Part shown: in pieces, positions 9,701 through 15,700 of the stretch
Position numbering within the stretch: the stretch's first letter is position 1
How the letters are laid out: each line of letters begins with the position of its first letter
DNA from: Toxorhynchites rutilus septentrionalis
Lineage: Eukaryota; Arthropoda; Insecta; Diptera; Culicidae
Direction of reading: 5' to 3'
DNA: 64,000 nt
Assembly (NCBI RefSeq): GCF_029784135.1
Contig: NC_073744.1
Location: 15,170,929-15,234,928 of the forward strand
Program-made: the position numbers and the translations under genes
Notes under the pieces: model-generated
Database searches by the model: none
The model's input: the letters and a program-made list of their open reading frames with translations, nothing else
Told to the model about the DNA's origin: nothing

Positions 9701-12700
9701 TCATTAGATAAACAATTGAATAACTGTAAAATATTAGGCGTTATCTAAACGCCCTAACTGCATCGTTTTGATTGGCCCGATTTACGGTTTCCCTAACACA
9801 GCCATCAAAACCAAGCAGCCTTGGGGAAATCGGCATTGCAAATACATGAAAGTAGGGGGACTTTTGTTCTCATCGAAAAATGTTCCCTAACACAGACTTT
9901 AAAACCAAGCAGCGAAATCGGCATTGCAAGCACACGAAAGAGCCTAGAGGCGAGTGAACTGAAAAGTTTAAACCCTCTTAAAGCCAAAAAGAAGAAAAAG
10001 AACACACGAAAGTAGGGGGAGCTTTTGTTCCCACCGAAATGTGTTCCCTAATAGAGATTTCTAAACCAAGGTGCCTGGAGAAATCGGTATTTCAAATTCA
10101 TGCAAGTCGGGGGTATTTTTGTTCCGACTGGAATGTGTTTCCCTAACACAGACTTCAAATCCATGAAGCGTGGGGAAATCGGCATTGCGAATTCATACAA
10201 ATCGGGGGTATTTTTGTTCCGATTGAAATGTGTTTCCCTAACACAGACTTCAAAACCGAGGTTTCTGGGGAAATCGGCTCTGCAAATAAATGCAAACTGC
10301 GAGTACTTTTGTCCTCGCTTGCCTTTGTGCAGAGTGGAATATGTCTGTCCTAACATGATCTTCTAAACTTAGGAACCTGGGAAAATCGTGCAGCCACTAG
10401 AAGCGAATGAACTTCCCAGTTTCAAGCAAATTCGAGATTCGAGAAGTATGTACACTTTTGGGATGTAAACTTCAGAGGGAAATGTAAAATAAAATAATCG
10501 TTTGATAATTTTTTTTGTCTTTATTGGAAAGATTTTCAGCCTTAGGCTGGTTCATCAAACGTTTGATAATTCTTCCGTACATATATTTTGTTCTAGTCAT
10601 CATACCAAACGTAAAAGGTCCGTCATTAAATTTACTGGTAACGAAGAACAATCAATCACAATAAATGAATTGACTTTACACGGCATTTGTTCATTTTTTT
10701 CACTCACAGAGCAAATATATTGAACTCAATTGAATTTGGAAACTGTTTCATTCAATCAAGAATTTAATCAATACAAACGAATGATTGCTAAGCTAAGGTA
10801 GTTCCACGTGAACCTTGCGGTTATATCATAGATATAACCCACTAATTTTTGACGTAGGACTACGTCTAACCGGAAGATATAGGGGGTGAAATGGAAATCT
10901 AGGCACTGAACAAGTAGGAAAAAATGCAAGATTTGGAACGCTTATAACTCGAGCATTTCTCAATAGATCGCAAAGGTTTTTGCATCAATTGATAGGAAAT
11001 ATATCTACGCATCTAGCATAACGAATAACATTTCATTTTTCTTGAGAAAAATAATTGAATAATTGTGAAATATCAAGCATTGTCCAAATGCACTATGTGC
11101 CCATTTTTGATTGGTCCATTTTGTGCTCCTCAAATCGTACCGACCAAAACGGGCAACCAGAGCAGCAGCGAAATAGAATGAAGCACGATTGGAAAGGAAA
11201 AAGAAAAAAAACGAAACATTGGTCGCAGTCTCACACATGCGTAATTCTCGAGCCAGCCAGTCAGCTTAAAAATCCCCGCTCCGCTGCCGTAACGATCATT
11301 CTCATTCAAACCGTACACCACATCAGTTCGCATCACAACACATCAACAAACCAACCCAAGCAGCCATGTCTGGACATGGCAAAAGAGGGAAAGTGAAGGG
11401 AAAGGCAAAATCCCGCTCGAACCGCGTTGGTCTGGAGTTCCCCGCAAGGGTAGCTAGGCCGAGCGCGTTAGTACCAGTGCACCAGTCCACCTAGCCGGCG
11501 TTATATAGTTTCGGCCGCCGAAGTGATCGAGTTAGCTGGCAAAGCTGCTCGCGACGATAAGAAAACCCGCATTCGGAACAGAACACATTCGGTTCGGTGG
11601 ACATCAAGACAACAGGCAGTTGGCGAGTGGCAAACGCAATCGCAAAACGGCATCAGGTAGCAGAAGAAAAAAGTTTGTTCTTTATACAAACTGCTTTGGT
11701 GGCAAATCCAGAACAAGGCGGCATCGTGGGCGTTCGAAATGGTTTTTTTTCAAAACCACGAGTACTAAGTTTTCTAAATTGGAACCATTCCATAAAACAA
11801 GGCGCTTTTCAGGGCCATTAAACCTTCCAAAAAAGAGTTTAGGAAATACAGTTCAATGCTTTCTTAAACATTATCCAAAATAAAAATAAAACACAAATTG
11901 ATTTTTTCATAATTTGTTTGCCAGGATCTGATGAGTATGTGAATTTGGCAGTTGTTCTGAGCTTATTGATAGTTGGGGACTTTCCTGATTTTTCAATTTT
12001 TACCAATTCTTAAATTGTTTCCAGATTGAAAGTACAGTAATTTACAATTAGTTAGACATTTAGCTAATTGGACGGACATGTAATGCGACATATTTAGTTG
12101 AACATTTTTGTAAACATAGAGTTCGGGGTCCAAATTATGACCCCACATTGAAAGTCGACACTGTATCACTGTCATCGCAAATGTTCAATTACAGGTTAAA
12201 ATCGCCTCCAATGCGACACTGAGTGGTGCTTCGGCACGTCGTATTGAATGTAATTTACTGTAAAACATTTCACAAAGCTGGATGGGAAGAAATTTTCCAA
12301 CTGTGAAAGCTGTGGCGAGTGGCAACAAATCGCTAAACAGGAAGGTTTAGCCGAACAAGATGGGAATATCGAGTGATAACAAAACAATAAACTCTTTAGA
12401 TTGAAGATAATTTTGTGATCCTGTAAAGGACCCTTTTTAGCCTGCATGTGAATCCAACGAGCGAACAAATCGTAATGAATGCATTTTTTTGCCATCGCTC
12501 CCTTTTAACGCTCATTCGTTCGTCTCGTTGGACTCGCCCCTCTGGCTGAGTCTGCCGATTTGTCTCTATCCTGTGAGTGTGTACCGCTAGAGTATGAAAC
12601 ACGCGGACCCCAAAAAAAATATCTTATTTTCTTTCAAACCGTAAACCCGTGTTGTTGTACGGCATCAGCATCGTGGACGTAACAAAGGAGGCCAAGTTAA

Positions 12701-15700
12701 GGGAAAGGCAAAGTCTCACTCGAACCGTGCAGGTCTCCAGTTCCCTGTTGGTCGCATTCACTGATTGCTCCGCAAGGGTAACTAGGCCGAACGGATTGGT
12801 GCCGGAGCACCAGTATACCTAACAGCGATTATAGAGTTTCGGCCGTCGGAGTGCTCGAGTTGGCTTGCAAAGCTGCTCACGACAATCAGAAAACCTGCAT
12901 CAAGAACAGAGCAGCTTCGGTTCGGCGCTCATCAAGGCAACAATTAGTTTCAGTGAGTGGCAAAGTGTTTCTCCGGCACGTCGCATTAAATGTAATTTAC
13001 TGAACAACATGTCACAAGCTGGATGGGAATTTTCCAACTGTGAAAGCTGTGGCGAGTGGCAAACGCAATAGCTAAACAGGAAGGTTTAACCGAACAAGAT
13101 GGGAATATCGAGTGATAACAAAAACACAACACCCTAGGTTCTTTTCAGAACCATTAACATATTCATAAAGAGTAAACAGTAAAATAATCCATTTTTCAGG
13201 TAGATAGGTAGGTATTCACGTGGTAGAAGAAAATAAAACAATATATTTAAAATATATATTTAACAAAAGCTGTCCCCTTTGTATAGTCCTACGTCACTCC
13301 GGTTATGTCCCCGACATTACCCACCCGTCTTTTTCATTAGGGTGCCCACTTCCATTTTAGGGTGGTGCGCCGAAAAATCAAAATTTTCCCCATTTTCCCG
13401 ATAATGCCTGTTTTCAAAAAAAACATAACTTTTAAATCACTGCACCGATTCAGATCATCGACGAATCAAATTAACCCATTAACGACCAAGCTGTAAAAAT
13501 TATTTTTTTGACGAAAGCCATTGTTGTATTTTCGATTATTAACGCTAAAGGAACTCCAATGTTCAAGAATTATTTTTTCCCATCTTCCATTTTCCGGGAA
13601 ATGACTGTTCGAAAAATCGAACATTGGCCGAAACCCGCACATTTTTTTGCAAGTACAAACATACTGCGAACTAAAAGTCACTTCAAATAGCAAATATACG
13701 GTATTCATAAATGCATCAATTTTGGATTCCCGGAAGAACAAGAACAGGAGAATGGAGGTCTCTAAGTATAAATCCAAATTAATCCACCTAAGGTGAGATG
13801 TGGCATTTCTTATTTCATGTAATTTTAACTTATTACTGACAGGCTTTTTCTTTTAAACGAAAGCATATGCTGTTATTTTTATTGTTAACTGTGGAAAATG
13901 TCAATGCTTAAAAACTAGTCTCTCCAATTATCCATTTCCCGAAAAAATCGAACATTTTCCAAAACCTGCAAAGTACCAGAGTACTGCTAAAAACAATGGC
14001 ATAGAGGGTTGGGAGGTTATTATTCGGTCCGGCGGAAGAATATTCACACAAACAATCTCATTAGAATCCTCGTTACACGTACTGATCATTTCCTCCAGCT
14101 CCCCCACAAAAGAAATTCTACGGGCCGCCATCACCTAAGGTTGTTACGGACAAAAAATCATACAGATTTCCAATAATATTTGCTAAATTAATCGATATTT
14201 GCAAACATTCACAACTGAAAATGCAAGAATAAATGAAAAACCTTCCGTCTTCTAAAGTAAACAAACCAAAATGCGCAGCGGAGGTTAGATGTGTTGGTGT
14301 TGATTCAGCAGAAAAAAAAATGTTCGTTATGGCCAACGTTCGATTTTTCGAACACTCAATTTCCCCGGCTGTTATTTTCATGTATGCGGCTCAATCGAAT
14401 GATTTTCGCTCTATATCACAATGTATGTTCTTTTATCAAAGCAATACTGTAGAAAACTTCACATATTTTGGTATTTTATTGGGGTTTTTAATTGAAATTG
14501 AAAATACCTTCCAAACATACTTGCTTTAAATCGAATTTATTATCCAATAAAGTTACTCAAAATTGAATGAAATCGATATAAGTGGTAGCTAATAAATAAG
14601 GCTATCATTTGGTGCAAAAATATTATCATATGTTTCCTGTCAGAAGACATGAAAAATTATCAAAGTTGCTGTTCGATTTTTCGAACGCTTGGCCTAAAAT
14701 GGGTTAAAGCCAAAAAGCTAGTTTTTTTGAAAAGTCACTCTCCATCACTCTTAACATACAGGCACTGATCACTATTCGATCTCTGGAATCCACGCTGTTT
14801 GTTAAAACGATGGAAACGATCGTTCTATACCTGCGTCGCTTGCTTGAGGCCGTATAGAGAACGATTCAGTCGACAGAACAGACTGTCTACTTACTCATAT
14901 ATATCTCCTCTGTCACTTCTCCATTTAGAGAGGCTGTTCGAACATCCACCTGATGGATCAGCAATCTTTGCTGATTTGCAATTGCTAGCATTAACCGCAA
15001 CGTATCAACCTTCGCTACGCAAGCAAGCCACGCGCAACCAGTCGAACTTTGTTTCGGTCTGGTTCCCGGCCTTCTTCGCGCTTGAATCGAAAAACCCATT
15101 TACGCGTGATTGCATCTCGCCCTTTTGGCAGTTTACCAGCGTCCACGTTTCATTGTTAAGAAGCGAAGTCATCTCCTCGTCGACAGCTTTCTTCCACTTC
15201 GGACAATCCGGTCTCTTTAATTCGTAAGTCTCCGTAATTCAGCAATGAGAAACCTGGCAAGTTTCGAACGTACTCCATAGCACCGAGAGGTGACCGGCGA
15301 TTGCGGTTAGACTGTTCCTGAATTTCTTTTTCTTCGGATAACCTATCAAAAACCTCGGAACTCCCACTGCTTTCAGTTTCATCCGATTGCTCCCGATCTA
15401 GATTCGTTAAATCTTCACTGTCAATGAAATCACCATCTTGTTCGATATCAATGGACGAATCAACCGGTACCGCACTGAAATCACAGATCTGCTTTGCTTC
15501 TACTCGTTGCTGGTTCCTTGAGCGCTTTCGTCAATGACAACATCTCGAACGGTTGCGATTTTCTGTTCCCACATACGATAGCCATTTATACCATATCCAA
15601 CAAATATGCCTCTTCAGGTTTTCTCGTCAAGCTTTCCCCAGAGCTCCCTCGGAATATAACAATAAGCCGAAGAACCAAACACTCGAAGCTTAGAATCATG

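Follow-up and report, generated by a model that had tools for sequence, protein, structure and literature searches.

The locus examined here raises the question of how degenerate histone H2A sequence came to lie inside a mosquito transposable element, and whether that element carried it further through the genome. The window, the whole 64-kb stretch of DNA that was analysed, was compared with the rest of the genome of this culicine mosquito (902.6-Mb assembly). The results indicate, with a probability of roughly 0.87, a non-autonomous element of the Helentron type (HINE/DINE-1-like) into which genomic DNA of a histone cluster was captured. The features of the locus, in window coordinates, are as follows.

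9511..10849, plus strand: sister-subfamily HINE with a 95-bp minisatellite, head to tail with and immediately 5' of the histone-carrying element
10850..13331, plus strand: the complete element, a non-autonomous Helentron-like one (HINE) bearing histone cargo, delimited by related copies with identical ends and differing flanks; the number of terminal Ts is ambiguous, so the right limit may extend up to 13334
10850..11178, plus strand: left segment, the pre-capture part; right limit approximate, taken from the cargo-free relatives L048 and L050
10851..10866, plus strand: palindromic 5' subTIR GACGTAGGACTACGTC, read directly and found again in related copies
11179..11365, plus strand: promoter/5' UTR region of histone origin belonging to H2A copy 1; its final 70 bp are 73% identical to the parent promoter, the remainder being a probable extension
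11366..11640, plus strand: H2A copy 1, degenerate, truncated and frameshifted, with in-frame stops (tblastn; blastn to the parent 75% over 233 columns)
11801..11816, plus strand: histone-type hairpin 1, GGCGCTTTTCAGGGCC, followed by AAAAAAGAG; below the Rfam Histone3 gathering threshold
12033..12262, no strand assigned: MITE-like insert whose inverted ends are of the TACAGTAA type, labelled as a MITE by eye
12417..12432, minus strand: third histone-type hairpin, GGTCCTTTACAGGATC in the window and GGTCCTTTTCAGGATC in most related copies, followed by CTAAAGAG
12501..12673, plus strand: H2A promoter and 5' UTR of copy 2, 82.6% identical to the parent promoter over 167 columns (E 2e-41)
12674..12902, plus strand: H2A copy 2, degenerate and truncated; its TGA and TAG codons are found at matching positions in other copies
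13137..13152, plus strand: histone-type hairpin 2, GGTTCTTTTCAGAACC, followed by ATAAAGAG; Rfam Histone3 at 13132-13176
13284..13296, plus strand: 3' subTIR TAGTCCTACGTCA, inverted relative to 10850-10862
13301..13321, plus strand: 3' terminal stem-loop GGTTATGTC-CCC-GACATTACC with one mismatch, read directly

Results

The sequence-only reading had placed a DINE/Helentron-like element at 10847..13326. The element itself is confirmed, but its right end, GTCTT(TTT), lies at 13329-13334, a few bases beyond the proposed limit. The 16-nt palindromic subTIR begins one base inside the 5' end, and the 3' subTIR is followed by the terminal stem-loop, two of the features that characterize HINE/DINE-1-like elements, whose subTIRs measure about 12-15 bp, are often palindromic and on the left lie near the 5' end; the structure thus upholds the proposed classification. 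Comparison of the flanks of related copies revealed insertion in T-rich or TT sites with variable terminal Ts and without target duplication, and an empty state could be compared at L013 and L017/L019 only. The element itself does not encode a protein; of the 27 open reading frames of at least 120 aa on the list, none overlaps 10850-13331, and the H2A frames are broken. The focal left end was detected by a scan in 19 of 20 loci (L009-L028), and at L021, the locus where the scan missed it, the alignment nonetheless begins at element base 1. The right end was not detected within the stretch of L016 that was read.

Three other copies in the window had been thought to share the ends and a left segment of about 270 bp. 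Within the 64-kb window the left segment is indeed found again, 78-80% identical, at 9506-9783, 18784-19047 and 56540-56813. The 3' hairpin region of these copies differs (CCTTGCGGTTATATC...GATATAACC type), and they constitute a sister subfamily with a 95-bp minisatellite. The nearest relatives of the histone-carrying element lie outside the window, elsewhere in the genome.

A tblastn search with H2A matched copy 2 (E 1e-26) and copy 1 in three linked pieces (E 6e-16). The single orientation of the two copies described earlier therefore stands, but they are not whole genes, since the H2A pieces end near codon 78 of 124. A functional H2A gene has an open frame of about 124 codons; the element has truncation, stops and frameshifts, and none of the copies read preserves the H2A protein. 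No credible match to H2A residues 77-124 was found by tblastn in the element loci read, and no convincing match to H2B, H3 or H4 coding sequence was found in the element. L047, an older and less decayed H2A copy in the same genome, has an H2A-like stretch that by eye reaches about residue 90. A few broken H2A rows of the genome protein-level search align to residue 108, 117 or 120, and longer H2A remains may be present among them. Elements contain one or two H2A units; L038 extends past the stretch read and may hold more. A remnant of the MITE-like insert is present in H2A copy 2 as well. The copies have stop codons in common, indicating that the spread came after the decay.

As the sequence-only reading had stated, each H2A piece is followed by a histone hairpin, and a third hairpin was found in addition on the minus strand (12432-12417). 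A replication-dependent histone 3' end consists of a stem-loop and a purine-rich downstream element. Hairpin 2 conforms to this type, with an Rfam Histone3 score of 35.1 bits (gathering 34), whereas hairpin 1 falls below gathering (23-25 bits in related copies). The AAAAAAGAG sequence after hairpin 1 is presumably HDE-like. Of 11 related loci, 10 had a Histone3 match over gathering; L047, L048 and L050 had no Rfam match up to E 0.5. The third hairpin aligned to the 3' end of the parent H2A gene (see below) with a score of 24, which was reached by 0 of 500 shuffles. The parent hairpin, CGTCCTTCTCAGGACG, differs from each of the three element hairpins; the 3' parts may thus derive from other histone genes or may have diverged.

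The family is abundant. The exact 38-nt right end, which contains the 3' stem-loop, occurs 5,839 times genome-wide (0 for the reversed control), and a histone hairpin stands 115-145 bases before the right end in 4,379 cases (control 0), which bears out the proposal that an element family has spread histone sequence with its hairpins. Left end, cargo and right end co-occur by three ascertainments, in the kind of check that the sequence-only reading had proposed. H2A cargo was present in 28 of 32 loci ascertained by the left end (32 read of 40 scored), the four loci without it being the most diverged of the 40. Loci ascertained by the cargo had the left end in 10 of 11 cases and the right end in 10 of 11 (11 read of 40 scored). 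Among 20 loci sampled by the right end, 16 had the hairpin and 8 had an H2A match within 650 bp; L057, L059 and L070 kept the hairpin part alone within that distance, and L053 had no histone cargo in the 650 bp before the right end. The 274-bp left query gave 66 first-look candidates, far fewer than the right-end count; the search skips common words, and truncated left ends could also contribute. Three exact patterns (the ends and hairpin 1) were not found in viral contigs, a collection from which the records of this genome may be absent.

Flanks vary among copies while the ends stay the same. Five loci are 99.76-99.95% alike over 2,047 bp and three are 99.80-99.92% alike over 2,487 bp; such near-identical copies at different sites point to recent bursts. 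Insertions nested in older copies of the same family were found at L013 and L017/L019. L017 and L019 have the same outer element with a nested second copy but different outer flanks, indicating that the composite itself moved.

The best-matching parent is an H2A gene of the histone cluster on contig C3 (C3:233577965, L075). The captured sequence is 80% identical to it (E 9e-100) in a single alignment, 21 of whose 423 columns are gapped, that starts 188 bp upstream of the ATG, spans the promoter and enters the coding part. The H2A sequence of copy 2 is 84% identical to this gene and 70-73% identical to five other authentic H2A loci. Histone coding sequence was not matched in the 650 bp upstream of that gene's promoter (L080). 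A single gapped alignment covering both promoter and coding sequence shows capture at the DNA level rather than retroposition, as the sequence-only reading had suggested.

It is very improbable that the H2A pieces entered the element as processed pseudogenes. Their degeneracy would fit retrocopies, and the loss of introns does not discriminate because H2A genes are without introns, but the promoter was captured along with H2A and no poly(A) tail was seen by eye; retroposition was rejected on the evidence of the promoter. An equally remote prospect is that the copies represent histone arrays that became orphaned, their ends being spacer of the histone cluster, a view that the repeated nature of histone clusters (59 rows of identical H2A protein) might have favored. 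The ends were not present in the authentic H2A stretches L072-L074, and neither the left nor the right segment matched any of six authentic H2A stretches, so a spacer origin is ruled out for those read. Ends of these types are also found on H2A-free elements, and the flanks are not the same between copies.

Discussion

Capture of histone-cluster DNA by a non-autonomous Helentron accounts for the structure of the locus. The captured DNA would comprise an H2A promoter, 5' UTR and about 78 codons together with histone-type 3'-end signals, and would have replaced the usual minisatellite behind the left segment of about 330 bp. Capture may have occurred via read-through or template switching, and the gain of H2A units via slippage or unequal exchange. 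The element is presumably moved by rolling-circle replication, with a Helentron Rep/helicase/endonuclease acting in trans, as would be supplied by an autonomous partner that has these ends too. The pre-capture, intermediate and burst stages, along with the likely parental gene cluster, are apparently all seen in one genome.

It is possible to imagine that the cargo is retained for a function, its promoter and 3' signals giving S-phase, poly(A)-less element transcripts or binding SLBP/U7 in bulk. The transposon would then have co-opted the histone promoter and stem-loop 3' end as its own machinery, and its copies would yield hairpin-ended, non-polyadenylated RNAs that engage SLBP/U7 or give rise to small RNAs matching histone sequence, touching histone supply. 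The Rfam matches over gathering, the near-fixed spacing of the 4,379 hairpins to the right end and the retained promoter sequence are consistent with such a role. However, recent spread alone can explain the retention, and hairpin 1 is not clearly better conserved than its neighbours, 17% of 16-bp windows being equally conserved among 16 distinct unit-1 sequences (36 rows before those more than 99% alike were dropped). Selection on hairpin 1 is thus not supported, and both co-option and retention for function seem unlikely. Most likely the hairpins are passengers that may nevertheless continue to terminate or mark transcripts of the element.

Histone fragments in a mosquito Helentron are already known, and H2A capture is a further variant, since Thomas et al. 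2014 (PMC4067079) reported fragments of H4 and H1/H5 in Helentron-Cq-32A, which has eight copies in Culex quinquefasciatus. Like Helentron-Cq-32A, as portrayed there, the present element belongs to a mosquito Helentron family with palindromic subTIRs, a 3' stem-loop, TT insertion and broken captured histone fragments. Unlike Helentron-Cq-32A, it has H2A with its promoter and hairpins, often in two tandem cargo units, and its family numbers thousands of copies with an apparently non-autonomous carrier. The layout is also that of HINE/DINE-1 elements of Drosophila and Crassostrea gigas (Cg_HINE), which have central tandem repeats according to PMC7492417. Both have a left segment, central repeats and a right segment that contains subTIR and stem-loop, and both insert at T-rich targets with no target duplication, whereas the short satellite-like monomer is represented here by a histone-derived unit of about 1.3 kb. 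Host gene fragments are likewise reported to have been captured and spread at the DNA level by Helraiser (PMC4778049) and by bat and maize Helitrons (PMC4067079). According to PMC4067079, the insertion site of canonical Helitrons lies between an A and a T, in contrast to the Helentron-like ends and T-rich sites seen here.

As an example of gene capture by a Helentron, the family is a strong one. It has seeded at least 4,379 histone-type hairpins, against 64 full-length stop-free H2A rows among those scored. This opens the question of whether histone signals carried by transposons influence, in mosquitoes, histone mRNA processing, small RNAs or the way histone genes and reads are annotated. In the sections available of PMC6411831 and PMC11286205, the histone piRNAs of Aedes derive from H4. 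The H4-derived piRNAs of Aedes aegypti (PMC6411831) also involve histone sequence in mosquitoes, the source there being H4 mRNA and here H2A-derived element DNA.

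Structure of the element

The element at window positions 10850 to about 13331 is very probably (probability about 0.87) a non-autonomous Helentron (HINE) that captured DNA of a histone gene cluster. In the simplest reading, the HINE would be moved in trans by a putative Helentron, with the histone DNA riding as a passenger. Inside the element lie a left segment, two H2A pieces, a MITE-like insert and histone-type hairpins, of which two are on the plus strand and a third is on the minus strand.

Features of the window element
10850 to about 13331: whole HINE-type element, ends read from the sequence
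5' end: TGACGTAGGACTACGTC, a palindromic inverted repeat
11366-11640: H2A copy 1 (unit 1)
11801-11816, plus strand: hairpin 1
12033-12262: MITE-like insert within the histone cargo, ends of TACAGTAA type
12432-12417, minus strand: third hairpin, between both H2A units
12674-12902: H2A copy 2 (unit 2)
13137-13152, plus strand: hairpin 2
3' end, in order: TAGTCCTACGTCA, a few bases, the stem-loop GGTTATGTC-CCC-GACATTACC, then CACCCGTCTT(T)n

Many of the copies read contain the MITE-like insert, of which unit 2 also keeps a remnant. The sequence-only reading had described two captured, degenerate H2A genes with hairpins; an element with such cargo and hairpins is present, but the H2A pieces, which share one orientation, are truncated and broken, not whole genes. 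The three other window copies that it grouped with the element are indeed related, but form a sister subfamily: they have a 95-bp minisatellite, and their 3' hairpin is different. A sister copy (9511-10849) adjoins the element directly ahead of it.

Distribution in the genome

The assembly searched, to which the window belongs, comprises 902.6 Mb in 514 contigs. With the 274-bp left segment as query, 40 matches were scored of 66 first-look candidates, and 32 of these loci were fetched (rows 21-24, 26, 32, 33 and 35 were left out). H2A cargo is present in all 20 of the best loci (L009-L028, the window copy among them) and, sometimes in part, in 8 of 12 weaker loci (L040-L051), namely those with at least 89% left identity; the four cargo-free loci have left identities of 80-83%, the lowest of the 40 scored. 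With the H2A1 unit as query, 40 of 847 first-look candidates were scored, all at 96-100% identity. Eleven were fetched (L029-L039; a non-random choice, mostly top rows); the left end is present in ten, the right end in ten, and none lacks both. Co-occurrence of ends and H2A, the check that the sequence-only reading had suggested, is observed in the loci fetched, with cargo in 28 of the 32 left-end loci. There are one or two H2A units in each element read, and head-to-tail and inverted pairs also occur; L038 extends beyond the stretch fetched and may include a third unit.

The exact right-end 38-mer occurs 5,839 times genome-wide (reversed control, 0), and the combined pattern of hairpin, 115-145 bases and right end 4,379 times (control, 0). 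Assuming ~2 kb per copy, the family would occupy about 1% of the genome. A sample of 20 right-end loci was drawn by taking one place in five from the first 100 on the list, which fall within the initial 23 Mb of contig C1. Of these, 16 have hairpin 2 (no more than 2 substitutions) and 8 an H2A protein match at most 650 bp from the right end; one (L053) lacks histone cargo in the 650-bp stretch at its right end. Loci L053, L057, L059 and L070 have other internal sequence near the right end instead of H2A and so represent another structural form within the family.

Origin of the histone cargo

An H2A protein search of the genome, in which 150 of 20,767 first-look candidates were scored, returned 59 full-length rows identical to the query and five more that are full-length and stop-free at 92-98%. 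The remaining 86 include 64 with a single TGA and a single TAG each; these are spread over the three large contigs, in rows that give neither stop positions nor element membership. Among the loci read, the TGA and TAG of copy 2 stand at two constant positions. A few of the 86 rows align as far as residue 108, 117 or 120, past codon 78, and may be longer H2A remnants, which weighs slightly against the main reading. In the element loci examined, tblastn gave no credible match to H2A residues 77-124. Two H2A-bearing histone gene regions lie at G000:C3:233553741-233680391 and C2:101.6-102.7 Mb and, to judge from the loci read, differ in their promoters; many small contigs also have H2A rows.

The putative parent is L075, an H2A gene of the C3 cluster near 233.58 Mb. 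It aligns with window copy 2 in one gapped alignment (423 columns, 80%, E 9e-100) that starts 188 bp upstream of the ATG and ends at codon 78. The H2A part of copy 2 is 84% identical to L075 versus 70-73% to five other authentic H2A loci, whose promoters gave no match at the cut-off used. Since the alignment includes sequence upstream of the ATG, capture took DNA, not mRNA; the continuous match of promoter and coding sequence upholds the proposal of DNA-level capture rather than retroposition. The sequence-only reading had itself raised an alternative, that the shared ends are part of the histone cluster spacer. This is extremely improbable, as those authentic H2A stretches that were read contain no match to the ends of the element.

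In sequence, the three hairpins resemble genuine histone 3' ends. Hairpin 2 passes the Rfam Histone3 threshold, and each hairpin outscores the full set of 500 shuffles when compared with one or more authentic histone 3' ends, though not with all of them. Conservation of hairpin 1 is not clearly above that of its surroundings. The third hairpin, on the minus strand between the two H2A units, most resembles the 3' end of the parent H2A itself, which suggests rearranged or convergent capture.

Two loci look like the pre-capture state. L048 has the left segment joined directly to the right end, and L050 has the left segment, minisatellite remains and the right end; together they put the left junction of the capture at about window 11178. 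L047 encodes H2A residues 1-56 stop-free and residues 59-75, followed by another stretch that resembles H2A by eye. Its H2A is probably an older copy. Stops and frameshifts are shared among the copies read, so the main family arose later, once these had become fixed. Relative to the parent, the H2A of copy 2 and that of L047 have diverged by about 16-17%, and copy 1 by 25%.

Fragments of H4 and H1/H5 are on record in a Culex quinquefasciatus Helentron (Thomas et al. 2014, PMC4067079). An H2A-bearing Helentron is not named in titles or abstract openings among the matches listed by a word-based search of open-licence literature. The element may also feed histone small RNAs, as the sequence-only reading had suggested; histone piRNAs of Aedes derive from H4, as far as the available text of PMC6411831 and PMC11286205 goes.

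Mobility

The copies have different, T-rich flanks. Nested copies lie within older members of the same family in L013 (promoter part) and in L017 and L019 (3' part); other copies show such sites unoccupied, and apart from Ts nothing is duplicated there. L017 and L019 agree in the inner copy and its flanks and have different flanks around the outer element, indicating that the outer element transposed together with the copy inside it, as a composite. Loci L011, L012, L015, L017 and L021 are 99.76-99.95% identical to one another over 2,047 bp (the L019 inner copy, being equal to that of L017, was left out), and L013, L024 and L027 are 99.80-99.92% identical over 2,487 bp. This near-identity, a divergence of 0.05-0.24% within bursts, indicates that spread was recent and came in bursts. 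In L026 and L023, another HINE subfamily (ends with TGACGTAGGACT, hairpin GGTTATA...TATAACC) is nested in H2A elements.

Elsewhere in the window, an LTR element at 59-4027 has ORFs for Ty3-like pol and an env-like protein (by eye, from the ORF list). A prophenoloxidase-like exon at 27944-29005 has 92% identity to a protein of Aedes albopictus and 94% identity to a further, unnamed protein, which points to a culicine mosquito as the host. Two ~690-bp copies (34762-35452 and 45568-46257), 98% identical, each contain a 143-bp tandem array.
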